Origin: Acidiphilium acidophilum
Lineage (GTDB): Bacteria; Pseudomonadota; Alphaproteobacteria; Acetobacterales; Acetobacteraceae
Length of the DNA: 64,000 nt
Assembly: GCF_033842475.1 (NCBI RefSeq)
Contig: NZ_JAWXYB010000018.1
Coordinates: 2,339,501 to 2,403,500 of the forward strand
Direction: 5' to 3'
Shown here: positions 8,452 to 41,436 of the stretch, one piece after another
Layout of the letters: each line of letters begins with the position of its first letter
How positions within the stretch are numbered: the stretch's first letter is position 1
The notes under the pieces: model-generated
What the model saw: the letters and a program-made list of their open reading frames with translations, nothing else
The model's database searches: none
Told to the model about the DNA's origin: nothing
Position numbers and translations under genes: made by a program

Positions 8452-8829
8452 TTCGAAAACTCCACCGATGCTGGACGCGTAGATGGCGAGCCCTCGCCCG
8501 CCGATCAACGGAACCCGGACCGGCGCGCGTTTCATCCGGCAGGGTGTGGTGATCATGCTTCGGGCGATCGGGGGGGCTGTCGCTGATCGCGGAAGGATCA
8601 GGCGGAGCATGGTCCCGTTGCAGCCAGGATCATCCGGTAAGCGATCGGATATGGCGATCACTTCCATTTGATTTGTAGATAAGTTTATGTGTTCTCGTAT
8701 TCGTGAAGTTCTGTTATTGAAAACAGAACAGAACGAAGAGGGATCAATCAAATCGGAAAAGAAAAATAAATTATGTGACTTATAGTCTATAATTTGAAAT
8801 TATCAAAAAAAAATCGGGGGAAATTACTT
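8452..8829. other. AT-rich intergenic region upstream of porin gene
   Basis: 378 bp between the divergent SDR and porin genes. The right half (about 8665-8829) is markedly AT-rich compared with flanking coding DNA and should contain the porin promoter and 5' leader. No convincing ORF or RNA motif is seen. Confidence 0.6.
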
Positions 8830-24978: not shown

Positions 24979-25743
24979 TCAGTGACCGGGAATGACGCTC
25001 GTCGTCCCGTTGGAATTGACCTGATAGTTCACGCTCGCACTCGTCGCGATGAACTGCTGGAAATACTGATTGAAATACCCGTAGACCCGCGCGATGGCGG
25101 TGCGCGGCACGAATATCTCGTCCGAAGTCGCCAAGGGCACATTCGCAGCGGGGTCGCGTGCCGATTGCAGCGCCGCAAAATTCGTCCCGAAAAACTGCTG
25201 CTTGCCATCCGGCAAATGACGCAGAATGTAAATCTGGTCCGGATTGGCACCGAGTTTCAATCCGCCTGCGGCGGCAATGGCTTGAGCAAGGCGCGGCACG
25301 GGCCCCTCGAAACTATATACGCCTGGCTTCTCGACATAGCCGAGCACATACACGACAGTCGGTGCCGATTTGATCACGATCGCCGAAATCACCGGATTTT
25401 TCAGCACTTTGGTGTAATCGCCCCATAATGCGGTATCGAGCTGTGGCAGCGTCAACCCCGCCGCCATCTGCCGTTGCACCACGCTGGTCGATATGCTGCC
25501 ATCGGGCAGGACGGTCGCCGTTTCGTTCAACTCGGCATCGAGCGGCAGGCGGATCGAAAGCACGTCCCCCACCGCGATACGATAGGGTTGGCTGGTTGGC
25601 GGCGTGACGGCCGATCCCGCCTGAAGCACCGTTGGTGCCGGTTGCAGCGGCGGCAATTGAGTGCACCCGCCGAGCAGAGCGACACCCAGAATACCAATCC
25701 GCCGCAACGACGAAACGGCAACGCCCGTATGGTCAGAAAACAT
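24979..25743 (-). CDS. Wza/GumB-like polysaccharide export lipoprotein (first copy)
   Basis: 254 residues with a lipoprotein signal (ILGVALLGGC, lipobox cysteine at residue 27) after a short basic N-terminus. The Poly_export domain (YRIAVGDVLSIRLPLDAELNETATVLPDGSIS) and an SLBB-like segment (VVYVLGYVEKPGVYSFEGPVPRLAQAIAAAGGL) identify the outer-membrane polysaccharide export family. It is a single gene, about 14 kb away from the main EPS operon; a shorter homologue is at 62428. Confidence 0.9.
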   Translation of the reverse strand: MFSDHTGVAVSSLRRIGILGVALLGGCTQLPPLQPAPTVLQAGSAVTPPTSQPYRIAVGDVLSIRLPLDAELNETATVLPDGSISTSVVQRQMAAGLTLPQLDTALWGDYTKVLKNPVISAIVIKSAPTVVYVLGYVEKPGVYSFEGPVPRLAQAIAAAGGLKLGANPDQIYILRHLPDGKQQFFGTNFAALQSARDPAANVPLATSDEIFVPRTAIARVYGYFNQYFQQFIATSASVNYQVNSNGTTSVIPGH

Positions 25744-25817: not shown

Positions 25818-26813
25818 TTACCCGGTTCCCACCCTCGACCTTCGCCCGACCATTACGGCATCGAGCCAGTTACGGTACGACCGCACCGCGTGATCGCGCC
25901 ACACCGGGCGCGCGGCCGCCCCCTCGTTCGGCAGGGGTAGACTGTCAAATCCGGTCGGATCGCGTTGCCGGCGCAGCGCGCGCTGCAACCCGAACAGGGC
26001 CGCGCGGGTCGGTGCATCGAAATATCCCACCGGCATTGTGGGATAATCGGGTGCGGCTCCGGTCAGATAGCGCCGGACATCCCGGCGATATTCCAGCGCC
26101 AGGCTGGCGCTTTCGTATTCCGGATGTCCCTGCAGGAACAGGCAACCGGGCGCATGGTCATGCACGAAGCGATCGACCCCGCCACGGGCGGAGGCGGCGA
26201 GCACCCGGTAACCCCGCCTGGTCAGCGGCCCTTCATCCAGGCTGTTCCAGCGCGAATGCGGCACGGCGATCCTTCCCATCGTATCCGCCAGCAGCGGATG
26301 TTCGCCCATGACGTCGAACCGCAGCACGCCGTGGCATTTACGGGCCAGCCGCCGCCGCGCCACACCGCTCAGATGCAATACCGCGACATGCGAGGCGAGG
26401 CAGGAAAACAGCATTGGTATCCGCCGCGCGATCGCGTGATCGATCAGCCGGGTCAATGCCGGGTAATAGGCTTCATCGCGCAAATCCTCTGTGCTCGGCT
26501 CGGCGCCCGTCACGATCAGCCCGTCCGGCTGCTCGTCCGCGATCGCTGCCGCCGGGCGATAGCGCGATCCTGCAACATCCGGACCGTCATCGGTCATGAC
26601 GTACCCTTGAACGATCAGTTCCGGCATCGACTCCGCGGCTGCGGCGTGGAGGATCGCCCGAAACTGCCGATCGGCATCGCGAAACCCGGCCCCGTGCATA
26701 TTGTTGACCAGCCCGATCTTGAGCGCCTCGCCTCCGGCGGCGGATAACGCGCGCACCGGTGCGCCGGGCGGGGTCCATGCCGAAATCCGGGGCGCGCGCT
26801 GAACGTCCGACAT
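25818..26813 (-). CDS. Homoserine O-acyltransferase, MetA-type
   Basis: 331 residues from the ATG at 26813; an ATG at 26834 would overlap the preceding gene. The class-I glutamine-amidotransferase-like MetA fold shows KIGLVNNM, GLIVTGAEPSTEDLRDE, the catalytic cysteine in MLFSCLASHVAVLHL, PHSRWN, the catalytic histidine in LQGHPEYESASLALEYRRDV. Family members acylate homoserine with succinyl- or acetyl-CoA in methionine synthesis. The next gene upstream encodes the sulfhydrylase, whose stop is 2 nt before this ATG. Acyl specificity cannot be read reliably from sequence. Confidence 0.88.
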   Translation of the reverse strand: MSDVQRAPRISAWTPPGAPVRALSAAGGEALKIGLVNNMHGAGFRDADRQFRAILHAAAAESMPELIVQGYVMTDDGPDVAGSRYRPAAAIADEQPDGLIVTGAEPSTEDLRDEAYYPALTRLIDHAIARRIPMLFSCLASHVAVLHLSGVARRRLARKCHGVLRFDVMGEHPLLADTMGRIAVPHSRWNSLDEGPLTRRGYRVLAASARGGVDRFVHDHAPGCLFLQGHPEYESASLALEYRRDVRRYLTGAAPDYPTMPVGYFDAPTRAALFGLQRALRRQRDPTGFDSLPLPNEGAAARPVWRDHAVRSYRNWLDAVMVGRRSRVGTG

Positions 26814-26815
26814 TC

Positions 26816-28117
26816 TCAGGCCGCCGTCGCGCAATTGGCGTGTCCAGCCGCGACGGTCAGCGCCTGATCGAGGTCGGCGATGATATCATCGATATGCTCG
26901 ATCCCGATGCTCAGCCGGATCATCTCGGGCGTCACGCCGGTCTGCGCCAGTTCGGCCTCGTTCAACTGGCGATGCGTCGTCGAGGCCGGGTGCGTCGCCA
27001 GCGATTTCGCGTCACCCAGATTGACTAGGCGTTTGAATAGCGTGAGGGCGTCGAAAAAGCGCCGCCCGACCTCGAACCCGCCTTGCACGCCGAACGTCAT
27101 CAGCGAACAGAACTGACCACCGAGGTAACGCAAGCCAAGATCATGATAGGGATTTTCCGAGAATCCGGCATAATTCACCCAGGCGACGCGCGGATCGGCG
27201 CGGAGAAACCCGGCGACCGCACGGGCGTTGGCGACATGCCGCTCCATCCGCAGCGGCAGGGTCTCCAATCCCTGCAACAGCAGAAACGCACTTAGCGGTG
27301 CCAGCGTGGCACCGCCGTTCCGCAGGCATACGCTGCGGCAATGCGCGACGAAGGCCGAGACCCCGAACTGCTCGGTGAACACCACATCGTGATAGGCCGG
27401 TTCGGGCGCGTTCAGCATGGCGAATCGCGGGCCCTGCGCCGCCCAGTCGAACCGCCCGCCATCGATGATCGCCCCTCCCATCGTGGTGCCGTGGCCACTG
27501 ACGAATTTGGTGAGCGAATGAACCACCACATCGGCCCCATGCTCGATCGGGCGCAGCAACATCGGCGTCGCGACGGTATTGTCCACGATCAGCGGCACCC
27601 CGTTCGCGTGCGCCACGGCCGCAAGCCCGGCAATGTCCGAAATATTGCCGGCCGGGTTACCGACGCTCTCGCAATAGACCGCACGGGTCCGCTCATCGAT
27701 CATTGCCGCCACTGCTGCCGGCGTATCGTCCTGCGCCATCCGGACATCGACGCCCTGGCGCTTGAACACATGGGCGAACAACGTATAGGTCGCCCCATAT
27801 AGTTGCGGGTACGTCACGATATTCGTACCGACTTCGGTCACGTTCTGAATGGCGTACTGGATCGCCGCCATGCCGGTGGCCGTGGTCAGTGCCGCGACAC
27901 CCCCTTCGAGCGCCGCCATGCGTCGTTCCAGCACATCGTTGGTCGGGTTGCTCAACCGGCAATAAATGTTCCCCGGTACTGTGAGATCGAACAGCGCCGC
28001 GCCATGGTCCGCGCTGTCAAATGCGTATGCCGCAGTTTGATATATCGGGACCGCGACGGCCCTGCTCGTCGGGTCGGTCTGGTAACCGGCGTGGATCGCC
28101 ATGGTTTCCCGCTTCAT
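26816..28117 (-). CDS. metY: O-acetyl/O-succinylhomoserine sulfhydrylase (Cys/Met metabolism PLP enzyme)
   Basis: 433 residues, the length of MetY-type enzymes. PLP lysine is in VVHSLTKFVSGHG; other family marks are ETMAIHAGYQTDPTSRAVAVPIYQT, YCRLSNPTNDVLERRMAALEGG and the C-terminal RLSIGIEHIDDIIADLDQAL. It makes homocysteine from acylhomoserine and sulfide. It forms a two-gene operon with the MetA-type gene. The 251-bp leader upstream carries a direct repeat at 28260-28278 and a TATAAT hexamer on the minus strand (28220-28225). Confidence 0.92.
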   Translation of the reverse strand: MKRETMAIHAGYQTDPTSRAVAVPIYQTAAYAFDSADHGAALFDLTVPGNIYCRLSNPTNDVLERRMAALEGGVAALTTATGMAAIQYAIQNVTEVGTNIVTYPQLYGATYTLFAHVFKRQGVDVRMAQDDTPAAVAAMIDERTRAVYCESVGNPAGNISDIAGLAAVAHANGVPLIVDNTVATPMLLRPIEHGADVVVHSLTKFVSGHGTTMGGAIIDGGRFDWAAQGPRFAMLNAPEPAYHDVVFTEQFGVSAFVAHCRSVCLRNGGATLAPLSAFLLLQGLETLPLRMERHVANARAVAGFLRADPRVAWVNYAGFSENPYHDLGLRYLGGQFCSLMTFGVQGGFEVGRRFFDALTLFKRLVNLGDAKSLATHPASTTHRQLNEAELAQTGVTPEMIRLSIGIEHIDDIIADLDQALTVAAGHANCATAA

Positions 28118-28368: not shown

Positions 28369-29409
28369 TCAGGCGCGTGCTTGGGTTTGGCGGTCATAGT
28401 AGGTCACCATATCCTTCGGTTGAACGCTCTGCCGATCGCTGCGCCGGCCCAGAAAATAATGGCCGCTCGCCGCATCGGCGTTCGGTGCGGCACGGGCAAA
28501 TCGCTCCAGCCATCGCAGCCCGAAAAAGGGTGCCACGCAGATTGTCGCAACCGGATTCCGGACCCCGAACGCGCGCAGATAATACCGCATCGACCATAGC
28601 AACGCGGTGCCGGCTCCACCCACCGTGCCCGACTCGATTTCGTCGAACCGCCGGAACAACCAGCGGTGACCGCTTCGGGTAAAGCGGGTGAAATCGAATG
28701 CCGCCTCGTGGACCTGCTGCATGAACGGCGTATCGGCATAAACCAGCCCCTCAGGGTGCAGCACGCGGTGAATTTCGTTCACGACGGCCTGCGGCTCCAA
28801 CACGTGTTCGAGGACCGCCTGAACGATCACCGCATCGAACACGCCGTCCTGAAATGGCAAGGCATGACCATCCGCCACCAATTGCGTGTTTACCGACGCA
28901 TAAACATCGGTTCCGACCACCTCAATGGAGGGATCTTCGTAGAGCGCGGTGATTCCCGATCCGATCGCGCCGCCGCCCAGCACGAGAACGCGCGGGCGAG
29001 ACGCTTGGCGGCGCAAATGGTGCAACAGTGTGCCGCACATCCGCGCCGCCTCGGTGTTGTGGCCCAGAACCGCGCGGCGCAGCATCGTTCGAAGGCCCCG
29101 GCCACTATCGTCTCGCGGCAGAACCGAACCACGCCCGGCTTCGTAACTCGCCCGATCGAAAATGCTCGTCTCGAAATCGACCAGCACGGGTTGGCCCTGC
29201 GTCACCGGAAATCCAACGGTTGCATAAAGGCAGGTCACCTCGCGGCAGACCCATCGCGCGCTCGCCGGCTCGACCGCGCCATGGCAGCGCGGGCAGCACA
29301 GGATGGTCCGCAAATCGGTGCGCAGCGGGTCGGCGGGGCAGTTAGGATCGGAATCGATCAGCGGGTGGTCGGGATCAAGCCGGTCGGCGGTGCTGGCGTT
29401 GCTGAGCAT
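28369..29409 (-). CDS. SAM-dependent methyltransferase with N-terminal zinc ribbon
   Basis: 346 residues. Residues 38-60 hold a zinc-ribbon-like set (C39-x2-C42 and C55-x4-C60, from CCPRC and VCREVTC). The class-I methyltransferase domain follows: motif I VLVLGGGAIGSGI, acidic GTDVYASV, ADGHALPFQDGVFDAVIVQAVLEHV and HRVLHPEGLVYADTPF. The arrangement resembles methyltransferases of cell-surface sugar or natural-product clusters. The substrate is unknown. It is on the minus strand, separated from metY by 251 bp and from the IS4-type element by 251 bp (29410-29660, AT-rich, no gene). Confidence 0.85.
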   Translation of the reverse strand: MLSNASTADRLDPDHPLIDSDPNCPADPLRTDLRTILCCPRCHGAVEPASARWVCREVTCLYATVGFPVTQGQPVLVDFETSIFDRASYEAGRGSVLPRDDSGRGLRTMLRRAVLGHNTEAARMCGTLLHHLRRQASRPRVLVLGGGAIGSGITALYEDPSIEVVGTDVYASVNTQLVADGHALPFQDGVFDAVIVQAVLEHVLEPQAVVNEIHRVLHPEGLVYADTPFMQQVHEAAFDFTRFTRSGHRWLFRRFDEIESGTVGGAGTALLWSMRYYLRAFGVRNPVATICVAPFFGLRWLERFARAAPNADAASGHYFLGRRSDRQSVQPKDMVTYYDRQTQARA

Positions 29410-29660: not shown

Positions 29661-30943
29661 CTCACTCATCCCCTCATTACGTAGCCGGCATGGAATTGCC
29701 GAATATGCCGCTGCTGCGCAGCATTTCCGTGAACCGCCGCATCAGGGGCAGTAGCCGGTGCTTCGGCATGTTCGGGATCAATTCATAGAGCATGCACCCC
29801 TGACGGAACAACGAGTGTGAGCGGGTCTTCGAAGTGTTGGACTTGAGCTGTCGATCCATTCCCAGGCTCTCGCCTGCCGTCCCGAGCATGGTCAGCAGCG
29901 CCATCGCAAACGCGCTGATGAGCAGCAGCCGATCGCGCCGCTCTGGTTCGGCGATGCGGATCTCAGCCATCCCCATCCCAAAACGCAAATCCTTGACGTC
30001 CCTGAAGCTGGGTTCGATCGTCCAGCGCCGGGAATATTGCTTGATCAATGTCCCTGCAGACGCCACGGCGTCACTGCTCGCCAGGCACCACGGCTCCTTC
30101 ATGTCACGCGCATGTACGCACACCACGGCACCGACCTGATAGGCGTGCGAGGCGGTGACGCGCGCACCACGCAGTTTGCGCGCCCGGCCCGATTTGCCGA
30201 CCCAGTCCGCCGCGGTTCGCGTCTCGCCTGCGGCATCGGTGACATGGATGTTGCCGCGGAAGCGAATGATATAGGCAAAGCCAAGCTCCGTAAGATACGC
30301 GAACAGCTTGTGGTCACCGAAGCCGCGGTCGGCCAGGATGGTCACGCGGCAGCCGGGCGGGACAACCTCCGACAGGCGGCGCAGGCAAGTATCCTCGATG
30401 GCGTTGCGCTGATCTTTCAATTCCTCTTTCCACATCGACAGCCACAACAGAGGCATCGCCCGGCCATGCTTGCTCACCAGGTTGAGCGCCAACGTTGCCT
30501 GATCGTCGCCGTCGAAATCCGTCCAGTCCATGGCAACGACGATGTCGGTCTGCGAACCCACCAGATGCGGTACCCAACGGGCGAAGCTTTCCCAGACGTC
30601 GATACTCTCGTTACTGAGCATGCGATCAACCTGCTTGATCGCGTGCTTGGTCACCAGCCCGCGCGCCTGTGCCAACGCCTGACCGATCATCGCGACGGCG
30701 AGCGACGCGCCGGTCATCACGCCCAGTGTCGCAGCAGACAGGGAGTCAACGCGTTTGGCGTGGAGATCGTGGGCATACAACTCGTCAATGAATGCGCGGA
30801 TGTCCTTCAACCGCCCACCATCACGCTTTTTCGATGCTGCAATTCCCATGATCCACCCTCATCCATGCATTCCAACGCTTGGTAGAGAATCGCAGCGAAT
30901 CGGCGCAATACCTGGACCTATGGAAAATGGGGGGATTCCTGAG
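29661..30943 (-). mobile_element. Complete IS4-family insertion sequence
   Basis: 1283 bp with one transposase gene. Imperfect terminal inverted repeats: left end CTCACTCATCCCCTCATTA, right end (reverse complement) CTCAGGAATCCCCCCATTT, about 14 of 19 matching. A perfect 9-bp duplication CCGCGTAAG flanks both ends, showing a simple and relatively recent insertion. It lies between the methyltransferase gene and the carrier-thioesterase operon. Confidence 0.9.
29677..30849 (-). CDS. IS4-family DDE transposase
   Basis: 390 residues, full length. Catalytic DDE residues are in VVAMDWTDF, TILADRGFG and the YSRRWTIEPSFRDVKD segment (Y-x2-R-x3-E-x6-K signature of IS4). The stop is 16 bp inside the left end of the element and the start 94 bp inside the right end. 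No frameshift or stop is seen, so it is probably functional. Confidence 0.94.
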   Translation of the reverse strand: MGIAASKKRDGGRLKDIRAFIDELYAHDLHAKRVDSLSAATLGVMTGASLAVAMIGQALAQARGLVTKHAIKQVDRMLSNESIDVWESFARWVPHLVGSQTDIVVAMDWTDFDGDDQATLALNLVSKHGRAMPLLWLSMWKEELKDQRNAIEDTCLRRLSEVVPPGCRVTILADRGFGDHKLFAYLTELGFAYIIRFRGNIHVTDAAGETRTAADWVGKSGRARKLRGARVTASHAYQVGAVVCVHARDMKEPWCLASSDAVASAGTLIKQYSRRWTIEPSFRDVKDLRFGMGMAEIRIAEPERRDRLLLISAFAMALLTMLGTAGESLGMDRQLKSNTSKTRSHSLFRQGCMLYELIPNMPKHRLLPLMRRFTEMLRSSGIFGNSMPAT

Positions 30944-30964: not shown

Positions 30965-31063
30965 ATGCAACTTCTGATTACAAGACCCCACTCATGCAGG
31001 GGACGATCGGTCGCCACGTTGATTACCGTGACCACGAAAGTATCCGCTTATGCCGGGCGTTGA
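30965..31063 (+). CDS. Possible 32-residue leader peptide overlapping the carrier-thioesterase start
   Basis: ATG with a strong AGAGGA site at 8 nt; 32 codons (MQLLITRPHSCRGRSVATL...) ending at TGA 31061-31063, 11 bp past the ATG of the carrier-thioesterase gene. That downstream ATG has only a weak site of its own, so translation could be coupled. No homologue is recognised and it may be a chance ORF. Confidence 0.3.
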   Translation: MQLLITRPHSCRGRSVATLITVTTKVSAYAGR

Positions 31064-32174
31064 ATTGTCCTGCCGAACCGCGTCCCAACCGGCACCGCAG
31101 CACGCCGATGTCATCGATCCCATCGTGAACTGGCTGATTGCGCAAGTTCAATCGATATTACGTGGCCCGGCACCCCACCCGGATGACGATTTCTTTGATC
31201 TCGGCGGCGATTCCATGAGCGCTCTGGCCCTGTTCGATGCCATCGAACAACGTTACGCCTGCGCGCTGCCGCTCACCACCATTTACGATGCGCCGACCAT
31301 GACCGATCTCGCAGCCCGGATCGTAGCCATCCGACCCACCGAGACGTCCCCCTCGTGCCTGATCCCGCTCAAGGCCGCCACCCAGCCACAAGCGCGCCAC
31401 GGCGCCGTCATTCTCATCCACGGGATCGGCGGCCATGTGTTCGATCTGCTGCGCCTCGGGGCGATGATCGAGTCGCCCCACAGCATCGCGGCTCTCCGGG
31501 CGCGCGGCCTCGCCGCAGGCGAAACACCGGTCGACCGGATCGAAACCATGGCGGACAACGCCTTCACCCTGATCCGCGCGACATATCCCGACCAGACGAT
31601 TCATCTGGCCGGCTATTCGTTCGGCGGGATGCTTGCGATCGAAATCGGCCGCCGCCTGCGCACCGCCGGACTCAAGTTCTGCAGCATCACCCTGCTGGAC
31701 ACCTATCCCCAGCCCCGGTGCTGGCCGCGCGCGCAGGCGCTCGATGTCCGCCTCCGCCGCATGCGCAATCAACTCACCACCCTCCGCACGTCCGACTGGC
31801 CCACCCGGATCGCCTACGTGCGCCACCGACTCGGCTTGTGGGGCGACGCGGTTTCCGCGAAATCCTCGCGTGCCGGCTGGCTCGCCGCCCCCGACGGCGC
31901 CACCCCGGAGATTCGCGCCGTGTTCGAGGCCGCTTCCGTCGCGATCGACCAGTACCAGCCGACGATGTTCGAGGAGCCGGTCACTTTCATCAAACCGGAG
32001 ACCGCCTCGGTGTTTCTCCCCACAAGGCCACGCGCCGTCTGGCAAAAATTCATGCCGCAACTCGATGTCCAGACGGTCCCGGGTGATCACATCACGATGC
32101 TCGACGAGTACGCACCCGATCTTGCCGTCCTGCTGTCACGCATTATCGCGCGGGCGGATGGCCGCCCGGCATGA
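31050..32174 (+). CDS. Peptidyl/acyl carrier protein fused to thioesterase
   Basis: 374 residues. Residues 22-95 form a carrier domain with the phosphopantetheine site DDFFDLGGDSMSAL (S55). Residues about 112-370 are an alpha/beta-hydrolase type-I thioesterase: IHGIGG oxyanion region, nucleophile S190 in LAGYSFGGML, probable acid D217 in LLDTYP and H347 in PGDHITML. Such C-PCP-TE pieces normally end NRPS assembly lines; here it is a free two-domain protein. An in-frame stop lies just upstream, so 31050 is the start. It overlaps the adenylating ligase gene by 4 bp, and the pair looks like one operon. It would hold and release an acyl or aminoacyl group activated by the ligase. Confidence 0.9.
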   Translation: MPGVELSCRTASQPAPQHADVIDPIVNWLIAQVQSILRGPAPHPDDDFFDLGGDSMSALALFDAIEQRYACALPLTTIYDAPTMTDLAARIVAIRPTETSPSCLIPLKAATQPQARHGAVILIHGIGGHVFDLLRLGAMIESPHSIAALRARGLAAGETPVDRIETMADNAFTLIRATYPDQTIHLAGYSFGGMLAIEIGRRLRTAGLKFCSITLLDTYPQPRCWPRAQALDVRLRRMRNQLTTLRTSDWPTRIAYVRHRLGLWGDAVSAKSSRAGWLAAPDGATPEIRAVFEAASVAIDQYQPTMFEEPVTFIKPETASVFLPTRPRAVWQKFMPQLDVQTVPGDHITMLDEYAPDLAVLLSRIIARADGRPA

Positions 32175-33655
32175 ATCCCCCAGTTCTGCCCGAATTCGAG
32201 CACATCGCTGCCCCGCTCGCCCATTGGGCCGCTCGCACACCCGAGCATCCCGCGCTGATCGAGGGCACCAGGGTCTGGACCTATGCAGACTTGAACGAAG
32301 CCGTCATGGCGGCGCGAAACATCCTCCTCGCGCAGGGTGTCATCCCCGGCGATCGCGTCGCCATCATGGGCGATAACACCGCCGCCATGATCATCCTGCT
32401 CCTTGGCGCAAGCCATGCGGGGGCCTGGATCGTGCCGCTCAACCCCCGTTTGTCAGAGCGCGAAATCGACGAGGTCGGCCATCACGCCACGCCGACCTGC
32501 CTGTTGTTCGCCACCTCTGCTTCCGCGAAAACGCGCCAGCACGCCGAACGCTGCAACGCCGACCCCCTCGTCATCGCCGGTCTCGGCGGCGTGGCGGTCA
32601 TCAGGACCGACCACCCGGCCCGCCCCGAACCCGACCGAAACATCGCTGCCCTCATCTACACCTCCGGCACGACCGGTCGCCCCAAGGGTGTGATGCTCAC
32701 CCATCGCAACCTCACCGTCTCGGCGCGCACCTCCGGTGCCATCAGGGCGATCGGCCCTGACGATCTCGTGTATTCCCCGCTGCCGGTCAGCCATATCCTC
32801 GGGTTCACCGGCGTCATGCTCGGCACGCTGACCTACGGCGCAACCCTCATGCTCGCCCCGCGATTCGATCCGCCCGGGGCTCTGCGCGCCATTCTGCACC
32901 ACCACATCACGCTCATGATCGGCGCGCCGTCGATGTTCGCATTGCTTACCGAATATGCTGCCCTGCAAGGCATGAAGACCCTGCCGCCGCATCGCCTGCG
33001 CCTGATCGCCAGCGCCGGCGCCCCCCTCGACGAGACGGTGAAGTCCACGGTCGAAGCCTGCTTCGGCATCGTCCTGAACAATGGTTACGGCATCACCGAA
33101 TGTGCCCCCACCATCGCCCAAACCCGGATCGACCGCCCGCGCCGGGATTGCTCGGTCGGCATGCTCCTCCCCGGGCTCGAAGCCCGCCTTGCCGGCGAGT
33201 CGAACGGAATCGGCGCCCTGCACCTACGCGGCCCCACGATCATGGCCGGCTACTACCGCGACGATGCCGCCACCGCTTCCGTGCTCGACCACGAGGGCTG
33301 GTTTGACACCGGCGACCTCGCACGCTTTCACGATGATCATCTGTTCATCGTCGGCCGCAGCAAGGAGCAGATCATCCGCTACGGCTTCAAAATCTATCCG
33401 GTCGAAATCGAAGCGGTGCTCAATGCCCACCCCGGCGTCCGGCAATCCGCCGTGATCGGACGGGGCACCGGCGCGCATCAGGACGTCATTGCCTTCGTCG
33501 AACCCGCCGCCGATGCCAAGATCGAAATCGCCGAGCTGCTCGATTATGCGGCTCGCTCCCTGGCCGATTACAAGCGCCCCACCGAAATTCATCTGAGCCC
33601 GGCCCTGCCGATGGGCGCCACCGGTAAAATCCAGAAATCCGCCCTGATCGCGTGA
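32171..33655 (+). CDS. Stand-alone adenylate-forming ligase (AMP-binding)
   Basis: 494 residues. ANL-superfamily motifs are intact: ALIYTSGTTGRPKGVMLTHRN, NNGYGITECAPT, EGWFDTGDLARF, GRSKEQIIRYGFKIYPVEIE and the catalytic lysine in MGATGKIQKSALI. It resembles acyl/aryl-CoA ligases and loading ligases more than NRPS adenylation domains. With a carrier-thioesterase gene overlapping upstream (ATGA) it probably charges S55 of that protein. The carboxylate substrate cannot be named. Confidence 0.9.
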   Translation: MNPPVLPEFEHIAAPLAHWAARTPEHPALIEGTRVWTYADLNEAVMAARNILLAQGVIPGDRVAIMGDNTAAMIILLLGASHAGAWIVPLNPRLSEREIDEVGHHATPTCLLFATSASAKTRQHAERCNADPLVIAGLGGVAVIRTDHPARPEPDRNIAALIYTSGTTGRPKGVMLTHRNLTVSARTSGAIRAIGPDDLVYSPLPVSHILGFTGVMLGTLTYGATLMLAPRFDPPGALRAILHHHITLMIGAPSMFALLTEYAALQGMKTLPPHRLRLIASAGAPLDETVKSTVEACFGIVLNNGYGITECAPTIAQTRIDRPRRDCSVGMLLPGLEARLAGESNGIGALHLRGPTIMAGYYRDDAATASVLDHEGWFDTGDLARFHDDHLFIVGRSKEQIIRYGFKIYPVEIEAVLNAHPGVRQSAVIGRGTGAHQDVIAFVEPAADAKIEIAELLDYAARSLADYKRPTEIHLSPALPMGATGKIQKSALIA

Positions 33656-33734
33656 CGCGAGCCCGGTTCATCTGACCGGAATTGCGCGCAAGCCGCCTTG
33701 TCGGCTACCTGCCGAATTCATCCCGTCTCACGCG

Positions 33735-34901
33735 TCAATACGACCGATCTTCCCAATCGAGCCGGAGATTTTCCCGAATGTAGGGCACCGGATCGGACAG
33801 GACATAGCCGAGCATGGCAACATCGCGGCGCCCCAGCCGCCAGGGCGTCGGCAACGCCGCCAGAATCGCTTTGATCGAACGCACGGCATCGCCCGGCTTC
33901 GGCGCAACCGGCGGTTCGTCAGTCGGGATATTGGCCATCACCGCCAGTCCCAGTGCCGGGAAATTCACCCCGAGCAGCATCGACAGCGGCATTTTGTAAA
34001 ACACGCGCGGATTGCATTCCAGGAAATGCACCTGCCCCGCCGGATCGAGGCGCATGTCGAAATTCAGGATACCGGAAGCGGAGGTTGCCGCAACGATCCG
34101 GGTCAGCGCATCCAGCACCACCGGCAGATCGAGGGCGCTATAGGTCGCCCGCCGCAGCCGGTGGCAGATATACCCGATCACCCGGCCGCGATCGGCAAAC
34201 ACGGTCGCTCCGATGTCATCCCCATCGATGAAACGCTGCACCAGCACCGGCTGGTAATCGATCGTGGCGGCGATCGCCTCGGCCTCGGTCGCGACCACAC
34301 TCACCCCCCGGTTGCCATCGAGCGACAAGGGTTTGATCACGGCCGGGATCGGAGTTTCATCCTGCGCGATGCTTGCCAGCAGTTCCGCACGATCTCCAAA
34401 AACCCGGGTCGGCGGACATAATATCCCGAGCGTCTGGCACAAGGCAGTGAAGCGCGCCTTGTCGTTCAGCACATCGAACGTCGCGAGGTCGGGCATCGGA
34501 AAGCAGTGCGTGCGAAGATATGGCGCCATCGCGATCAACCAGCGCGTGCTCGGCTGATCGCCCGCGAACACGAAATCGATGTCGTCCCGCACGATCAGCT
34601 CGTTCACCGCCGCGATCATCGCATCATCGCAGGTGCCATCGAAGGTGTGTGAGGTTTCGGTATAGCGTGCGCAGAACCGCGACCGGCGCAGGCCGTCCGA
34701 TCCGGTATTTCCCAACACATGCACCGTAACGCCCGCGGCGGTGAAGCAGCGCAGCGCGCGATAAGGCAGGGTGAACAACCCGCATACCAGCAGGCCGCGC
34801 AACGGGCGTGCCTCCATGATTGAGGGTCGCGCCTGCTGGTCGGCCACCGGTGGGGCCGGTGTCGCTGCCAGCGCAACCTCGCGAAACGCAACGTCACTCA
34901 T
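33735..34901 (-). CDS. ATP-grasp domain ligase
   Basis: 388 residues. An N-terminal preATP-grasp fold (LLVCGLFTLPYRALRCF, FVFAGDQPSTRWL) leads into the ATP-grasp domain: IPAVIKPLSLDGNRGVSVV, VLVQRFIDGDDIGATVFAD, ILNFDMRLDPAGQVHFLECNPR with the Mg-binding E and N. The family makes acyl-phosphate-linked amide, thioester or ester bonds. Start overlaps the stop of the monooxygenase gene by 4 bp. It converges on the adenylating ligase gene with 79 bp between stops. Confidence 0.87.
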   Translation of the reverse strand: MSDVAFREVALAATPAPPVADQQARPSIMEARPLRGLLVCGLFTLPYRALRCFTAAGVTVHVLGNTGSDGLRRSRFCARYTETSHTFDGTCDDAMIAAVNELIVRDDIDFVFAGDQPSTRWLIAMAPYLRTHCFPMPDLATFDVLNDKARFTALCQTLGILCPPTRVFGDRAELLASIAQDETPIPAVIKPLSLDGNRGVSVVATEAEAIAATIDYQPVLVQRFIDGDDIGATVFADRGRVIGYICHRLRRATYSALDLPVVLDALTRIVAATSASGILNFDMRLDPAGQVHFLECNPRVFYKMPLSMLLGVNFPALGLAVMANIPTDEPPVAPKPGDAVRSIKAILAALPTPWRLGRRDVAMLGYVLSDPVPYIRENLRLDWEDRSY

Positions 34902-36151
34902 TCGCCAGCCTGACCGTAAGCCGCCGCCGGGGGGCCGAGCGGCACGGTAGTGCTTGCTGCACGGGGGAATCGGCGAGCGAGATGCCGGCCAAGCACCGGC
35001 GTGGTGGTACCCGCGCCGAACACGAAGCGCATCACCGGGCCGAAACTCGGCGCGGCGACCGGCCCGATCATGTAGAGCCCCGGCACCGAGGTTTCGAATT
35101 TGCGCGACAGCGCCGGTGCCGTGCCACAGGTGCGGATCGCACTCGCCAGCGCCGGGTCCAGCATCGCGATCCGCGCGACATCGGGCCGAAACCCGGTTGC
35201 CGCCACCACGTGATCGACCTCAATCCGGTGCGCCGCGCCATGCCGGTCCTTCAACGCGAACGTCACCACACCGTCATCGGCGGACACCGCCATGGTGGTC
35301 ATGCCGGAAAGGATCGGCACCTTGCCTTCAATGCGGTCGCGCATGAACCAGCCCGGCGCGGGGCCCAGTGTCGTCTCGACGACGCGCAGCCGGACCGCTT
35401 CGGGCAGTGCATGAAACAAGGCCGGAAAATTCACGTAAAACCACAAATCCCAGCCGCCGCCGATCCCGGTATCGGGCCTTCGGATGCGGTGGCGCAGCGG
35501 TCGGCGATGCGACGGCGGATGATGAAACGCCACGCTTTCGCGGCGTGTAATGATCCTGGTATCGGCCCCGGCCTCATGCAGCGCGGCGGCGACATCGATT
35601 GCCGACGCGCCCGAGCCGACCACCGCCACGCGCTTGCCCGCGAGCGCCGCGACCGGCCCGTGCTCGACGCTGTGGGTGATGCAGTCCGCCGGGAGTGCCG
35701 CAAGATGACGCGGCAGATAGGTGAACGATCTCACGCCGACCGCAACGACCACGGCACGCGCACCGACCTCCTCGCCATCCTCAAGCGTCAGGGAAAACCC
35801 GTTGCCGTCGCGGCGGATCGTGGCAACAGTCCGGGGATCGGCGTGCGACACCATGCGATCGCGAAACCGCGTGCCATACGCATGGAATTCCTCCACTGTG
35901 ATCGGCTGTGTCACCACGAAGCTGCCGGTCGTTTCGATCTGATACCGGCTGATCGGAAATCCCGATCCCGGTGCCGGCAGATCGGACGATTGGCCATCCG
36001 ATTTCAGCTTGGTGCCGGGCGGCATGTTGTCCTGCCAGAACGACATTGCCGGGCCGAACACGCAATGATCGATATCGCTTGATTTCAGAAAGGCGGCTAG
36101 AGACAGGCCATATGGCCCGGCTCCGACAATGGCTACATCAAGTTTTTTCAT
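34898..36151 (-). CDS. FAD/NAD(P)-binding monooxygenase-like oxidoreductase
   Basis: 417 residues. FAD motif VAIVGAGPYGLSLAAF (residues 6-21), NADP motif VAVVGSGASAIDVAAAL, and the ATGFRPDV segment place it among flavin-containing/N-hydroxylating monooxygenase relatives. The N-terminal MPPGTKLKSDGQSSDLPAPG region matches the family part that shapes the active site. It precedes and overlaps the ATP-grasp gene. Before the IS1595-type insertion it lay about 80 bp downstream of the GT4 gene on the same strand, so the three probably formed one operon. Confidence 0.87.
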   Translation of the reverse strand: MKKLDVAIVGAGPYGLSLAAFLKSSDIDHCVFGPAMSFWQDNMPPGTKLKSDGQSSDLPAPGSGFPISRYQIETTGSFVVTQPITVEEFHAYGTRFRDRMVSHADPRTVATIRRDGNGFSLTLEDGEEVGARAVVVAVGVRSFTYLPRHLAALPADCITHSVEHGPVAALAGKRVAVVGSGASAIDVAAALHEAGADTRIITRRESVAFHHPPSHRRPLRHRIRRPDTGIGGGWDLWFYVNFPALFHALPEAVRLRVVETTLGPAPGWFMRDRIEGKVPILSGMTTMAVSADDGVVTFALKDRHGAAHRIEVDHVVAATGFRPDVARIAMLDPALASAIRTCGTAPALSRKFETSVPGLYMIGPVAAPSFGPVMRFVFGAGTTTPVLGRHLARRFPRAASTTVPLGPPAAAYGQAGE

Positions 36152-36237: not shown

Positions 36238-37266
36238 CCTGCTTACCCATCTTGATCCGCCGATTTCTCTGCGGTACGAAACGGGAACATAGCGATATGA
36301 TCTGGAGGTTTCGATGGCGCGCAACGCTGTGCAATTTCAGAAAGGGCTGAGCGAGGCTGAATTCGACGGGCTTTACGGCACGGAGGAGCAATGCCGGGCG
36401 GTGGTGATCAAGCTGCGGTGGCCGAACGGCTTTTCCTGTCCGGTCTGCGGTGGGACGTCGCACAGCATCCACACATCGCGGGGGCTGTTTCAATGCACGC
36501 GCTGCCGTCGGCAGACCTCGCCGACCGCGGGAACGATCTTCGCTGCGACGAAATTGCCGCTGCGTACGTGGTTCCGGGCGATGTACCACATGACGCAGAG
36601 CAAACAGGGGATCTCCTCGATCGAGCTCGGCCGACGCCTCGGTGTCCGCCAGACGACGGCGTGGATGCTCAAGCACAAGCTGCAGCAGGCGATGATGGAG
36701 CGTGACGGACGCAAACGTCTGAAAGGGCGGATCGAGATCGACGACGCGGTTCTCGGCGGTCAGCGCTCCGGTGGTAAGCGAGGACGCGGCGCGCCAGGCA
36801 AAACCCCGTTTGTCGCGGCGGTCGAGACGACCGAAGACGGCAAGGCGGTCCAGTTGAAACTGCGCCGGGTCGCGGGGTTCACCGGCCAGGAGATTTCGCG
36901 TTTCGCGTTGCGCAGTCTCGATCCCGCCTGCAATGTGGTCAGTGACGGGTTGGCCTGCTTTCATCGGGTCACCGACGCCGGGTGTGCGCATCAGGCAATC
37001 GTCACCGGAGGCGGTGCCGAAGCCGCGCGTCACCCGGTGTTCCGATGGGTCAACACAACCCTTGGGAACATCAAGTCCGCGATCGTCGGCACCTACCGGG
37101 CCATCAGCAGCAAACACACGCCGCGATATCTCGCCGAATTCGAGTACCGCTATAATCGCCGATACGATCTCGCCAGCATGATCCCAAGGCTCGGATACGC
37201 CGTCGTCCACGCCCCGCCAATGCCATACAGACTGCTGAAACTGGCGGAGGTTTATGGGTAAGCAGG
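36238..37266 (+). mobile_element. Complete IS1595-family insertion sequence
   Basis: 1029 bp with perfect 13-bp terminal inverted repeats CCTGCTTACCCAT/ATGGGTAAGCAGG and a perfect 8-bp target duplication TATGCATT. It carries one transposase gene whose TAA lies in the right inverted repeat. It was inserted into the stop codon of the GT4 gene. Confidence 0.93.
36314..37261 (+). CDS. IS1595-family transposase
   Basis: 315 residues. An N-terminal zinc ribbon (CPVCGG and CTRC, C-x2-C ... C-x2-C) is followed by an HTH-like segment and a DDE-type (ISXO2-like) domain with IEIDDAVLGGQ, VVSDGLACF and the EFEYRYNRRYDL end, where N replaces E as is usual in much of this family. Start preceded by GGAGG. 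Intact and probably functional. Confidence 0.94.
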   Translation: MARNAVQFQKGLSEAEFDGLYGTEEQCRAVVIKLRWPNGFSCPVCGGTSHSIHTSRGLFQCTRCRRQTSPTAGTIFAATKLPLRTWFRAMYHMTQSKQGISSIELGRRLGVRQTTAWMLKHKLQQAMMERDGRKRLKGRIEIDDAVLGGQRSGGKRGRGAPGKTPFVAAVETTEDGKAVQLKLRRVAGFTGQEISRFALRSLDPACNVVSDGLACFHRVTDAGCAHQAIVTGGGAEAARHPVFRWVNTTLGNIKSAIVGTYRAISSKHTPRYLAEFEYRYNRRYDLASMIPRLGYAVVHAPPMPYRLLKLAEVYG

Positions 37267-38348
37267 TATGCATTTGCAATCGCCAGGCGGCGATAGAGAG
37301 CCGCGATACGATCAACAAAAATCTCCATGGTGAATTCCTGGCGGTACAAACAGCGCCCTCCCGCCGCGAGTCGCTCGGCCAGCGCGGCATCGTCGATCAG
37401 ACGACGCAGCGCGCTTGCAATCTCGCGGCTGCCGCCGGGCGGCACGAACAGGGCGGTCGAATCATCGTCCAGCACCTCGGGAATACTGCCGACCGGCGTG
37501 CAGATCACGGGTGTGCCTGCTCCCAGTGCTTCCAGAACGACCAAAGGCAGACCTTCATGATAGGAGGGCAGCACCAGCACATGCGCGCTCGCGGTCAGTT
37601 CGGCGGCGCGCGTCCGGTCGATCCAGCCGGTGAACGAAACGCGGTCGTCCAGCCCCAGTTCCCCGGCCTGCCGGCGATAGGTTTCGATGGCGCCGCCACC
37701 GGCGAAGATCGCCTCGAAACGGCATCCGGCGAGCATCTGATCAGCGAGCGCCACCAACAGGTCGCCCACGCCCTTGCGGGGTGTCAGGTTGCCGAGAAAC
37801 AGGATTCGGAATATCGGCCCCCGGGCGGTCGGCTCTCCCAGGGCAATCACCGGCACCCCGTTGCGGATGACCGCGATCCGGTCGGGTGCCACTCCGATCG
37901 TGTTCACCAGCCAATCGCGCCAACCGGTCCCGAGAACCACGCACAAATCCGCCTGCCGAAAGACACCGCGGGCAAGCCAGCGGCCCCAGCCGGGCAAGCC
38001 GTCATAGAACGGCCGGATTTCAGCCGCGTGCAGATGCAGCAGCACCGGCACGCCGACCAGCCGGGCGGCAAACGCCACCACCCCCTTCCGGACCAGGCTG
38101 GCGCGTTCCGCGACATGGATATGCACAAGACCGAGCCGCCCGCGCGCCGCACCGAGCATAACGCGCACAAGTACGACCATCAGGTACCAGGGCGACCAAA
38201 CCACAGAGCCCGGCCCCCGCGCATCGACCGGGATCAGACGCAGCGGCAGATCCGCCGGGGCATATGCCATAAGATAAGACACGACCTGCCCCATTCCTCC
38301 TCCGACGGCGGCGACTGGACAGACCAGAAAACAATCTTTTCGTCGCAT
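37104..38348 (-). CDS. GT4-family glycosyltransferase with IS-derived C-terminal extension
   Basis: 414 residues from the ATG at 38348 (a TTG at 38375 would add nine). GT-B fold: GGGMGQVVSYL near the N-terminus, LFLGNLTPRKGVGDLL hinge, and the EX7E-like HEGLPLVVLEALGAGTPVI. The natural protein ended ...RRLAIANA followed by TAA; the IS1595-type insertion split that TAA, so the frame now reads through the inverted repeat and 54 residues of antisense transposase sequence (YLLTHKPPPVSA...) to a stop at 37104. The catalytic core is intact. Retaining transferase for EPS assembly is likely; sugar unknown. Confidence 0.88.
   Translation of the reverse strand: MRRKDCFLVCPVAAVGGGMGQVVSYLMAYAPADLPLRLIPVDARGPGSVVWSPWYLMVVLVRVMLGAARGRLGLVHIHVAERASLVRKGVVAFAARLVGVPVLLHLHAAEIRPFYDGLPGWGRWLARGVFRQADLCVVLGTGWRDWLVNTIGVAPDRIAVIRNGVPVIALGEPTARGPIFRILFLGNLTPRKGVGDLLVALADQMLAGCRFEAIFAGGGAIETYRRQAGELGLDDRVSFTGWIDRTRAAELTASAHVLVLPSYHEGLPLVVLEALGAGTPVICTPVGSIPEVLDDDSTALFVPPGGSREIASALRRLIDDAALAERLAAGGRCLYRQEFTMEIFVDRIAALYRRLAIANAYLLTHKPPPVSAVCMALAGRGRRRIRALGSCWRDRIGDYSGTRIRRDIAACVCC
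37267..37274. repeat. Target-site duplication, right (TATGCATT)
   Basis: Partner of 36230-36237. On the minus strand it holds the last alanine codon of the native GT4 protein and the first two bases of its lost stop codon. Confidence 0.9.
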
Positions 38349-38480
38349 CGATTTGCGCACTGGAAAAAATCTCAATAATTATAATAAAGTATAAAAATAA
38401 ATATACTGTTTTTCGCTTTATTGGTTTGCTAGCATGATTAAAATGAAACACGCAATTGATTTCGATGACGACGTTTCCGC

Positions 38481-39915: not shown

Positions 39916-41436
39916 TTGTCTTCGGATCATTATTCCAGCCCGACCAGCCTATTTCAGCAGACGCATTCTGGCAGGCCGGTTGCCGGGCGGCTCTCGCCCG
40001 GCACCGGCTTCTCGCTTCTGGCAGCCTTCGGCGAAGCCGCGATCATCGCCGGGGCCGTCGCCGCCGCCCTCCTGTTGTTCCGGTCCACCAGTTCTCTCGG
40101 CTGGGCAAGCTGGGTCGCCCTGATCGGTCTGCCGCTGTCCACCGTGGCTATTCTCGCCCAGCGGCAGTTCTATGCCGCTCACAATCTCCTGTTCGCGCGA
40201 TTCCAGCCACTGCGTCTGACCGGTGCCTGGATCGGGGCGTTCGCGACCACCATCGTGCTGGCCACGCTCGCCCGGAGCATCGAGCCGGTGCGCCTGCACG
40301 AAATCGGCATGGTGCCGCCGGAACTCGCCGTCCTGTTCGGGGCCGGGCTCGGCGCGCTGTTCGCGGGCCGGGTTGCATGGGCGGTCGTTCGCCCGCGATT
40401 CGCGATTCATGCCGTGCCGCGGGTCCTGTTCATCGGCGCGCTCGACGCGAGCCGCCGTCTGCTCGCCCAGTTGCACGAGGAGGACACGATCCATCTCGTC
40501 GCCACGCTCGACTATCGCGACGACACGATCGCTCGATCCGCCACGGCGGATTTGGCTTCCGTGGAACCCACTCTATCGGGTCACGACCGGCTTGCCGCAA
40601 TGCTGGAGCGCGAGGCGATCGATGCAATCCTGATCGCGCTGCCGCACACGCCGCAGGATGCAACCGCCGCGATCGCCGCCGCCGCGCAGAGTTGCGGGGT
40701 CACCACGGTGGCCCTCCCCGGCCGGTCGCTGCGGCGCAACCCCGCCGCCGGCTTCACCACCCTCGGCGGTGTGCCAGTCCTGCAACGCGAGACGACGGGC
40801 CTGCCGCCCGGCTTCATGGTGCAGAAGCGCCTGTTCGATCTCCTGCTCGGTGGGCTGGTCCTGCTCGTCATCGCCCCGGTCATGGCGATCATCGCGGTCC
40901 TGATCCGGCTCGATTCGTCGGGTCCGGTGCTGTTTCGCCAGCTGCGGGTCGGTCGCGGCGGTGCGCTGTTTGAAATCCTGAAGTTCCGCACCATGCACCA
41001 TCAGGTCCCCCGTGATCCGGGCCAGGATCACGGGGCGGTGCCAGATCAATTACAAACCGCGCGCAACGATCGGCGCATCACCCGCCTCGGCGCGGTATTA
41101 CGCCGGCACAGCCTCGATGAACTGCCCCAGATTTTCAACGTGCTGCGCGGCGATATGTCGATCATCGGCCCCCGCCCGCACGCGGCCGACATGACGGTCG
41201 AGGGCATGCGCCTCGAAGCACTGGTACCCGACTACACCGCGCGCTTCGCGGTCCCGCCCGGGATCACCGGATGGGCCCAGATCAATGGCCGTCGCGGCAT
41301 TCTCGACACCGCCATCGCCCTGCAGAACCGGGTCGACCACGACCTCTATTATATCGAAAACTGGTCACTCGGCTTCGATGTTTCGATTCTGCTGCGCACC
41401 ATCCTGTGCGTAATCCGCGACGATCAGGCGTTCTGA
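39916..41436 (+). CDS. Undecaprenyl-phosphate glycosyl-1-phosphate transferase (GumD/WbaP-like)
   Basis: 506 residues from a TTG with GAGG about 9 nt upstream. Four or so membrane helices and a CoA-binding-like middle domain (VLFIGALDASRRL) precede the bacterial sugar transferase domain: MVQKRLFDLLLGGLVLL, GPVLFRQLRVGR, FEILKFRTMH, HSLDELPQIFNVLRGDMSIIGPRPH, GITGWAQINGRRG. It loads the first sugar phosphate on undecaprenyl phosphate to start each repeat unit. First gene of the main EPS operon; the 289-bp AT-rich stretch before it (39627-39915) should hold the promoter. Confidence 0.93.
   Translation: MSSDHYSSPTSLFQQTHSGRPVAGRLSPGTGFSLLAAFGEAAIIAGAVAAALLLFRSTSSLGWASWVALIGLPLSTVAILAQRQFYAAHNLLFARFQPLRLTGAWIGAFATTIVLATLARSIEPVRLHEIGMVPPELAVLFGAGLGALFAGRVAWAVVRPRFAIHAVPRVLFIGALDASRRLLAQLHEEDTIHLVATLDYRDDTIARSATADLASVEPTLSGHDRLAAMLEREAIDAILIALPHTPQDATAAIAAAAQSCGVTTVALPGRSLRRNPAAGFTTLGGVPVLQRETTGLPPGFMVQKRLFDLLLGGLVLLVIAPVMAIIAVLIRLDSSGPVLFRQLRVGRGGALFEILKFRTMHHQVPRDPGQDHGAVPDQLQTARNDRRITRLGAVLRRHSLDELPQIFNVLRGDMSIIGPRPHAADMTVEGMRLEALVPDYTARFAVPPGITGWAQINGRRGILDTAIALQNRVDHDLYYIENWSLGFDVSILLRTILCVIRDDQAF

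Follow-up and report, generated by a model that had tools for sequence, protein, structure and literature searches.

Four genes within a 64,000-nucleotide stretch of the Acidiphilium acidophilum genome (contig NZ_JAWXYB010000018.1; referred to here as the window) appear to represent two modules placed side by side in an EPS locus, i.e. a carrier-thioesterase with an adenylating ligase and an FMO-like oxidoreductase with an ATP-grasp enzyme. The FMO and ATP-grasp genes are a recurrent pair, observed as a module of its own in other polysaccharide loci. The gene content, order, conservation, intact motifs and recurrent partners of this block are presented below as observed, alongside a proposed function (probability of roughly 0.4), in which the locus would encode an EPS side pathway by which a small substituent, oxidised and amide-linked, is made and attached.

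Gene content, order and conservation of the block

All four ORFs were confirmed. A carrier domain fused to a thioesterase (31050-32174, plus strand, 374 aa) is followed by a stand-alone adenylating ligase of the acyl/aryl-acid type (32171-33655, plus strand, 494 aa), and an ATP-grasp ligase-like enzyme (33735-34901, minus strand, 388 aa) is paired with an FMO-like FAD/NAD(P) oxidoreductase (34898-36151, minus strand, 417 aa). The genes of each pair overlap by 4 bases, and 79 bases separate the two pairs. An earlier note on this DNA had described two overlapping, convergent pairs with these functions, with which both ORFs and Pfam matches agree. Its placement of the genes inside an EPS locus was borne out by profile matches of the flanking genes, which encode a Wza-type export protein (24979-25743), a GT4 glycosyltransferase (37104-38375, minus strand; PF13692 above cut-off), an EPS polyprenyl glycosylphosphotransferase (39916-41436, plus strand; TIGR03025, 330.6 bits, cut-off 295.6) and a glycosyltransferase (44554-46869). 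Consistent with the same note, no condensation or ketosynthase domain was matched among the 10 non-transposase proteins scanned between 25.8 and 41.4 kb, where HTS, OAHS and the sugar-phosphate transferase were scanned by NCBIfam only.

Upstream of the carrier-thioesterase, the block encodes HTS, a divergent MetA-like homoserine O-acyltransferase (25818-26834, minus strand; PF04204 above cut-off; PRK05368 283 bits, below the cut-off of 358), OAHS, an O-acetylhomoserine sulfhydrylase-like PLP enzyme (26816-28117, minus strand; TIGR01326 596 bits, cut-off 495), a class I SAM methyltransferase (28369-29409, minus strand; Methyltransf_11 above cut-off) and a DDE_Tnp_1 transposase (29677-30849, minus strand; PF01609 above cut-off). 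The block holds a second IS transposase gene (36314-37261; PF12762/PF12760) in an IS1595-family element (36238-37266, plus strand). This element, with 37-nt ends (78 % complementary) and a flanking 8-base direct repeat, both read by eye, is located at the last codons of the GT4 gene, at its 3' end, and the C-terminal tail of GT4 extends into it.

A. rubrum and Acidiphilium sp. PA, both sister species, carry the four genes and GT4 in the order seen in the window. In their loci (L066 and L067), which gave no match to the methyltransferase, the GT4 gene (73-76 % identical to that of the window) is co-directional with the FMO and ATP-grasp genes; there is no IS, and 219 bases (L066) or 211 bases (L067) separate GT4 from FMO. 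The suggestion of a former operon with GT4 would fit this co-directional, IS-free arrangement in both species, but the L066 gap is AT-rich, so the FMO gene may have its own promoter. Comparison of the window with the two sister species yielded pN/pS values of 0.26-0.47 for the four genes, which are rough because dS (0.79-1.25) is near saturation. These comparisons support the view that the four genes and GT4 travel together under purifying selection in three Acidiphilium genomes. The ligase was found in 3 of 13 Acidiphilium genomes, and was not seen in G810, an assembly labelled as the same species (83 % complete).

Predicted enzymes of the two pairs

The carrier-thioesterase was shown to contain PP-binding (PF00550, residues 28-91) and Thioesterase (PF00975, residues 120-353) domains, both above curated Pfam cut-offs, with Ser55 (in FFDLGGDS), S190 (in GYS(F/I)GG) and His347 invariant in an alignment of five rows. 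Relatives at 31-32 % occur, without annotation, on Caballeronia and Paraburkholderia replicons; at one such replicon locus (L215), no other window protein was matched.

The ligase matched AMP-binding (PF00501, 267 bits) and AMP-binding_C (PF13193) above curated cut-offs and carries a C-terminal lysine (Lys486, invariant in five rows), the combination that marks acyl/aryl-acid members of the ANL superfamily. It scored 194 bits against feruloyl-CoA synthetase, compared with 98 bits against the best single gramicidin synthase adenylation domain, and its score stayed below the curated cut-off of each of the 25 NCBIfam models listed. In alpha-amino-acid adenylation domains, the amino group is held by Asp235. 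The corresponding ligase segment, SHILGFTG in the window, contains no acidic residue in any of the five rows (the gramicidin synthase alignment is gapped there), making an alpha-amino acid an unlikely cargo. In a tree of 15 rows, the window and sister ligases formed one clade, and the grouping of all OAHS/TE-linked ligases was weak, at 2 changes in the tree and 1 in 49 % of the bootstrap trees.

The ATP-grasp enzyme matched ATPgrasp_Ter (PF15632) above cut-off and PRK06849 with 69 bits, below its cut-off of 406. A fold search with its structure model (pLDDT 81) recovered the ATP-grasp fold, with 2pn1 (Z 25.5, rmsd 3.1 over 286), PylC (Z 25.4) and biotin carboxylase (Z 24.9) as matches; amide ligases and biotin carboxylases are thus alike in Z, and the search does not decide the substrate.

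The FMO-like enzyme matched Pyr_redox_3 (PF13738), Pyr_redox_2 (PF07992) and Lys_Orn_oxgnase (PF13434), all above curated cut-offs. Class B flavin monooxygenases and N-hydroxylases are recognised by an FAD motif (GxGxxG), an NAD(P) motif (GxGxSA), an ATG motif and the fingerprint FxGxxxHxxx(W/F/Y). In an alignment of five rows, GAGPYG was present in four (the coordinates of the fifth excluded the site), and G179, G181, S183, A184 and A318-T319-G320 were invariant; at the fingerprint site, His160 was invariant, the Phe was missing and the Gly was variable. Scores were higher against YpdA- and ferredoxin-NADP-reductase-type proteins than against N-hydroxylases, and the structure model (pLDDT 58) was too poor for a fold search.

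Partners of the two pairs in other genomes

Seven loci found through the FMO outside Streptomyces were opened, six of which adjoin a Pfam-confirmed ATP-grasp gene: L104, L105 and L106 (all three opened from the class search, in whose query profile two of five rows had been found via ATP-grasp) and L212, L213 and L214 (plasmid search). At L210 (plasmid search), an annotated carboxylate-amine ligase lacking a Pfam match lies one gene from the FMO. L077, L078 and L207 were reached via ATP-grasp or thioesterase and are not independent support for the pair. A polysaccharide context was evident by annotation for L210, L213 and L214, and by our own reading for L077 and L104. The window ATP-grasp matched just L105 and L106 among the seven loci (tblastn, 1e-6), so the FMO partner is often from another ATP-grasp subfamily. 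On two Streptomyces plasmids, the FMO has no annotated ATP-grasp within 8 kb. As side observations, the listing of plasmid record H6 (plasmid search) names an ATP-grasp, and G463 yielded a partial FMO match. The genome searches with FMO and ligase scored four or five candidates per genome, and absences in them are not firm.

The two pairs were mostly found apart. The FMO and ATP-grasp loci L077, L078, L104-L106, L210 and L212-L214 matched neither the ligase nor the thioesterase, and the ligase loci L071, L072 and L107-L109 matched neither the FMO nor the ATP-grasp enzyme (tblastn, 1e-6). In the latter group, the ligase is present and the carrier-thioesterase may or may not be: it is frame-broken in G058 (L108) and missing from L107 (G134) and L109 (G253). 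At L071 and L107-L109, a DUF3050 gene stands with the ligase, OAHS and HTS; no EPS gene was seen in the 6-14 kb covered for each, which would suit a diffusible product. In G080 (L207), ATP-grasp and thioesterase genes are adjacent, the thioesterase lacking a carrier domain.

OAHS and HTS (25818-28117), outside the gene set of the earlier note, are the steadiest partners of the ligase. Both occur in all eight close-ligase genomes, in seven on the same contig as the ligase. In G012, the three genes lie on separate contigs. Among 17 genomes checked, HTS was present in nine, the same nine that have an OAHS relative of at least 64 % identity. Divergent HTS (<250 bits) was found in 8/8 genomes with a ligase of at least 660 bits, compared with 16/291 others (Fisher P=5e-10), and by genus in 4/4 compared with 13/98 (P=6e-4), using cut-offs set after the scores were known and genomes that are related. 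When all 13 ligase genomes are counted, including the ligase relatives with other neighbours (L110-L115) excluded from the eight, HTS occurs in 9/13. Elsewhere, OAHS/HTS pairs accompany other AMP-ligases. A MetX-type match was present in 15 of the 17 genomes, all seven Acidiphilium included (none above the strict model cut-off of 500 bits); within Acidiphilium, HTS and close OAHS were confined to the three genomes with the block.

The expectation that the four genes co-occur with GT4 held in three Acidiphilium genomes, but the strict set was seen in no other genus; beyond Acidiphilium, co-occurrence fails in its strict form, not in a looser one. The looser set was seen in one more genome, G041, where FMO, ATP-grasp, thioesterase, OAHS, HTS and GT4 share one EPS locus. 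This set spans three contigs, the ends of which overlap by 147 bp (100 %) and 254 bp (98.4 %). The G041 thioesterase (L163), near FMO and ATP-grasp, lacks a carrier domain, the adenylases are two weakly matching CapK/PaaK-like proteins that differ in type from the window ligase, and an AsnB-like amidotransferase matches TIGR01536 above cut-off and TIGR03108 (XrtA amidotransferase) below. The reading as one compact pathway, as originally put forward, is partly supported: the FMO/ATP-grasp recurrence, the co-travel in Acidiphilium and the looser G041 set speak for it, the separation of the pairs elsewhere does not.

Related systems, proposed pathway and alternatives

Exosortase A (XrtA) EPS loci contain an acyl-CoA ligase, an acyl carrier protein, hydrolases and an amidotransferase. 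They resemble the Acidiphilium locus in having acid-activating and carrier genes without an NRPS in an EPS locus, and no XrtA-labelled ligase model was among the best 25 of 109 models for the window ligase. ATP-grasp proteins of polysaccharide loci (PRK06849/PF15632 kin, and PF14397, 'sugar-transfer associated ATP-grasp') share the locus type of the window ATP-grasp. PF14397 gave no match to the latter at E 0.001, and matches the FMO neighbour of L105 above cut-off. We know of no description of an FMO partner for such an ATP-grasp.

Adenylation/carrier/thioesterase genes without a condensation domain are described as 'NRPS-like' in two Komagataeibacter strains and Roseomonas vastitatis in the available part of a published study, the authors of which allow for 'other biosynthesis reactions' (PMC8776678). 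The likeness lies in this domain combination; there, the domains form one NRPS gene, whereas the Acidiphilium adenylase is separate, lacks the amino-acid Asp and lies near OAHS/HTS and EPS genes. In the accessible portions of the pvf/ham/mgo literature, an adenylation-carrier core occurs with DUF3050 (the family of MgoB, encoded in the mangotoxin operon; PMC3298696), as at L071 and L107-L109, together with an AurF-like N-oxygenase and a valine-loading NRPS, and in ham a reductase replaces the thioesterase (PMC10194917, PMC11659414, PMC3298696). Acidiphilium differs in adenylase type and in lacking DUF3050. As a candidate for the missing oxygenase of Acidiphilium, DUF3050 was rejected, being absent from 7/7 and, in a second search, 9/9 Acidiphilium genomes; as the N-oxygenase itself it was also dismissed, since the published N-oxygenase is, in those portions, the AurF-like protein (PMC10194917, PMC11659414, PMC3298696). 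An order search detected DUF3050 in 7/326 genomes, and its loci L157-L160, from two other genera, gave no match to nine window proteins (three are low-GC, with unusable ORF calls). A literature search, most subscription papers being outside it, returned no four-gene set, FMO and ATP-grasp pair in EPS loci or OAHS/HTS set, and the main text of a study of Acidiphilium sp. C61 aggregation (PMC7142476) mentions neither ATP-grasp nor thioesterase nor acyl carrier.

In the proposed side pathway, the ligase would adenylate a non-alpha-amino carboxylic acid and load it onto Ser55 of the carrier, from which the fused thioesterase would release or transfer it. HTS and OAHS, besides the MetX-type gene, may turn homoserine into a gamma-substituted 2-aminobutyrate as second building block. 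The FMO would then oxidise one of the partners at a nitrogen (or carbon), and the ATP-grasp enzyme would form an amide bond, the other component of which is probably a sugar acid or an aminoacyl group in the repeat unit; GT4 may then place the modified sugar into the EPS. Oxidation and amide formation would represent one module and the preceding steps a second, joined in Acidiphilium and presumably also in G041, where the adenylase is of another type and the thioesterase has no carrier domain.

It is quite conceivable, if somewhat doubtful, that two unrelated modules merely lie tail to tail, with FMO, ATP-grasp and GT4 decorating the EPS and ligase, carrier-thioesterase, OAHS and HTS yielding a diffusible metabolite. 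The separate loci of the pairs (tblastn, 1e-6) favour this, as does the presence of DUF3050 beside ligase and OAHS in 4/4 genomes carrying it (17 checked), given its MgoB family membership (PMC3298696, as far as available); however, the constant tail-to-tail order in three Acidiphilium genomes, the G041 locus, the adjacent G080 genes and the lack of DUF3050 in Acidiphilium (0/7 and 0/9 genomes) argue against it. A single small glycosylated secreted metabolite (e.g. a metal chelator) made via GT4, with a coincidental EPS setting, is unlikely: the enzyme set could yield a hydroxamate-like compound and the FMO matches the L-lysine/L-ornithine oxygenase family (PF13434), but polysaccharide loci of other taxa also hold FMO and ATP-grasp, no siderophore-type transporter or receptor was among the 10 scanned proteins, and the FMO is closer in score to YpdA- and reductase-type proteins. 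A decaying or house-keeping remnant, i.e. an IS-broken operon unused in this strain with OAHS/HTS serving methionine synthesis only, seems least probable; the two transposase genes and the ligase-less G810 would fit, but the frames are open, motifs intact and pN/pS low, and all seven Acidiphilium genomes have a MetX-type match, compared with three for HTS and close OAHS.

Returning to the proposed EPS side pathway, a more specific and rather improbable extension is that FMO and ATP-grasp represent an undescribed, phylum-crossing pair placing N-oxidised, amide-linked (hydroxamate-like) groups on polysaccharide, to which Acidiphilium would supply acids bound to the carrier, along with an amino acid derived from homoserine; the resulting slime would bind metals and suit acid mine waters. 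If the pathway is correct, carrier-protein acid activation would become tied to polysaccharide modification, and FMO with ATP-grasp would be a marker pair for such loci in Alphaproteobacteria and Acidobacteriota. Present in addition to the MetX-type gene, the dedicated OAHS/HTS pair would in turn mark a pathway for which the literature search returned no description.

Four-gene block and its counterparts in sister species

The open reading frames of the window bear out the four genes that an earlier note had described: a carrier-thioesterase (31050-32174, +) and a ligase (32171-33655, +) form one pair, an ATP-grasp gene (33735-34901, -) and an FMO gene (34898-36151, -) the other, each pair with a 4-base overlap and the two pairs convergent. 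The families claimed were likewise recovered by family scans, which identified a carrier fused to a thioesterase, an AMP-binding ligase that stands alone and an ATP-grasp protein; FMO came out as an FAD/NAD(P) oxidoreductase related to flavin monooxygenases and thioredoxin reductases.

The genome of the window measures 4.16 Mb, and its nearest named relatives are Acidiphilium. In the loci of two sister species, A. rubrum ATCC 35905 (L066) and Acidiphilium sp. PA (L067), the gene order is glycosylphosphotransferase, GH5, PAP2-like phosphatase, glycosyltransferase GT4, FMO, ATP-grasp, the convergent ligase and carrier-thioesterase, an O-acetylhomoserine sulfhydrylase-like gene (OAHS; window 26816-28117, -) and a MetA-like homoserine O-acyltransferase gene (HTS; window 25818-26834, -). 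These loci are taken to come from genomes G096 and G263, respectively, because their contig coordinates agree with those of the matches in G096 and G263. The phosphatase, identified by reading, is missing from the equivalent spot in the window. FMO, ATP-grasp, ligase and GT4 are 71-76% identical between window and sister loci, the carrier-thioesterase 63%, with pN/pS values of 0.26-0.47 at a dS near 1. Within the genus Acidiphilium, 3 of 13 genomes have the ligase (3 of 9 at completeness of at least 90% and contamination of at most 5%). The four-gene system is real and conserved, and no description of it was found in the literature searched.

GT4 (37104-38375, -) is separated from FMO by an insertion at its last codons, an IS1595-family element that has inverted ends and an 8-base direct repeat. 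L066 and L067 lack this element, so GT4, FMO and ATP-grasp already pointed the same way before the insertion. The earlier proposal was of a former operon with the glycosyltransferase; in the sister species, however, GT4 and FMO are 219 and 211 bases apart, far enough for a promoter to lie between them. A second transposase gene is located upstream of the carrier-thioesterase; between it and OAHS lies a methyltransferase gene (28369-29409) with no match in the L066 and L067 loci.

Several other features were observed. A single protein (21458-23497, -) fuses a GH5 cellulase domain to a hedgehog/intein-like Hint_2 domain, and a similar ORF was recognized by reading in A. rubrum (L066, 17879-20017). 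The C-terminal part of an 843-aa protein (42026-44557, +) matches GINT1_N, a family named after a glucosamine inositolphosphorylceramide transferase. All three Acidiphilium genomes with the block also encode a further carrier-thioesterase-like protein, a paralogue with 27-31% identity to the one in the window (L068, 8657-9790; L069, 8893-10014; L070, about 8177-9097), around which no related cluster was seen in L068 and L069.

Distribution of the two gene sets

A profile search with FMO (E 1e-40) across 385 genomes of the class matched five: the window's own, three with long matches and one with a partial match. Excluding the partial-match genome, an ATP-grasp gene adjoins FMO in all three loci opened (L104, L105 and L106). 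FMO also matched seven plasmid records. Among the four plasmid loci opened outside Streptomyces (Mesorhizobium L210, Granulicella L212 and L213, Bradyrhizobium L214), a Pfam-confirmed ATP-grasp gene lies next to FMO in L212, L213 and L214, while L210 carries an annotated 'carboxylate--amine ligase' one gene away, with no Pfam match at 0.001. On two Streptomyces plasmids with FMO, no ATP-grasp gene is annotated within 8 kb. By annotation, L210, L213 and L214 are polysaccharide loci. Three further pairs were encountered, two through ATP-grasp (L077 and L078, which are not independent for that reason) and one through the thioesterase (L207). Given this recurrence, FMO and ATP-grasp form a separate unit that is not tied to the carrier genes. 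Among the seven loci found through FMO, only the ATP-grasps of L105 and L106 resemble that of the window by sequence, and the partner of FMO thus often belongs to another ATP-grasp subfamily. Methyltransf_24 proteins occur near the pair in two genera (L207, 2099-2956; L106, 10540-11394).

The closest ligases outside Acidiphilium (47-51% identity) are encoded in L071, L072, L107, L108 and L109; in L071, L107, L108 and L109, the ligase is found together with a DUF3050 gene and OAHS (68-71% identity), followed by HTS. The carrier-thioesterase is an open frame in L071 and L072 and frame-broken in L108; none was seen in L107 and L109. Among 17 genomes picked on account of earlier matches, HTS and OAHS relatives of at least 64% identity occur in the same nine, and a MetX-type match in 15. 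HTS and these OAHS relatives are present in all three Acidiphilium genomes with the block and in none of the four without it. In a 299-genome family sample, HTS was found in 40 genomes, 24 of which score below 250 bits; all eight genomes with a ligase of at least 660 bits fall among these 24. P-values for this association serve only as a guide, since cut-offs were chosen post hoc, the genomes are related and the 17 were preselected. Ligase and HTS/OAHS genes lie on one contig in seven of the eight genomes and on separate contigs in the eighth, G012.

The surroundings of HTS were inspected in 15 genomes, 16 regions in all; the set comprised G012 and 14 of the 16 other low-scoring-HTS genomes. 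An adjoining OAHS is present in 14 of these 15 genomes, with 57-68% identity in 11 and 47-53% in three; in G128, HTS is at the end of a contig with no OAHS within view. Weak ligase matches (25-32%) occur in seven HTS regions. In L199, L200 and L202-L206, OAHS and/or HTS stand alongside other AMP-ligases, and this set may represent a second, larger undescribed pathway; L204 additionally encodes an SDR and a PLP decarboxylase, assigned by Pfam, along with a protein of 213 aa that has no match in Pfam.

Predicted chemistry and a possible joint pathway

In an alignment, the ligase lacks the acidic residue used by amino-acid adenylation domains, and it scores higher with single acyl/aryl-CoA ligases than with single adenylation domains; for both reasons, the acid that serves as its cargo probably has no alpha-amino group. 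A fold search with the ATP-grasp model (pLDDT 81) found it equally like 2pn1, PylC, biotin carboxylases and an L-amino acid ligase. FMO exceeds the cut-off for PF13434, has an incomplete class-B fingerprint and scores better with reductases; judged from its sequence, it could be an N-hydroxylase, or it could not.

The idea of one joint pathway, as opposed to chance neighbours, draws its chief support from genomes besides those of Acidiphilium in which genes of both sets occur, G041 and G080. G041 encodes, on three contigs with overlapping ends, HTS, OAHS, ATP-grasp, a glycosylphosphotransferase, GT4, two CapK/PaaK-like adenylases (weak matches), an AsnB-like amidotransferase, FMO and a carrier-less thioesterase. 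In G080, FMO, ATP-grasp and a carrier-less thioesterase are adjacent, with OAHS and HTS on a different contig.

The system looks like two modules, one of which, FMO with ATP-grasp, is widespread. Its kind is already known, both from acid-activating accessory genes in exopolysaccharide loci and from adenylation/carrier/thioesterase sets without a C domain. The latter have a precedent in PMC8776678, whose sets share with the window this combination and the absence of a C domain.
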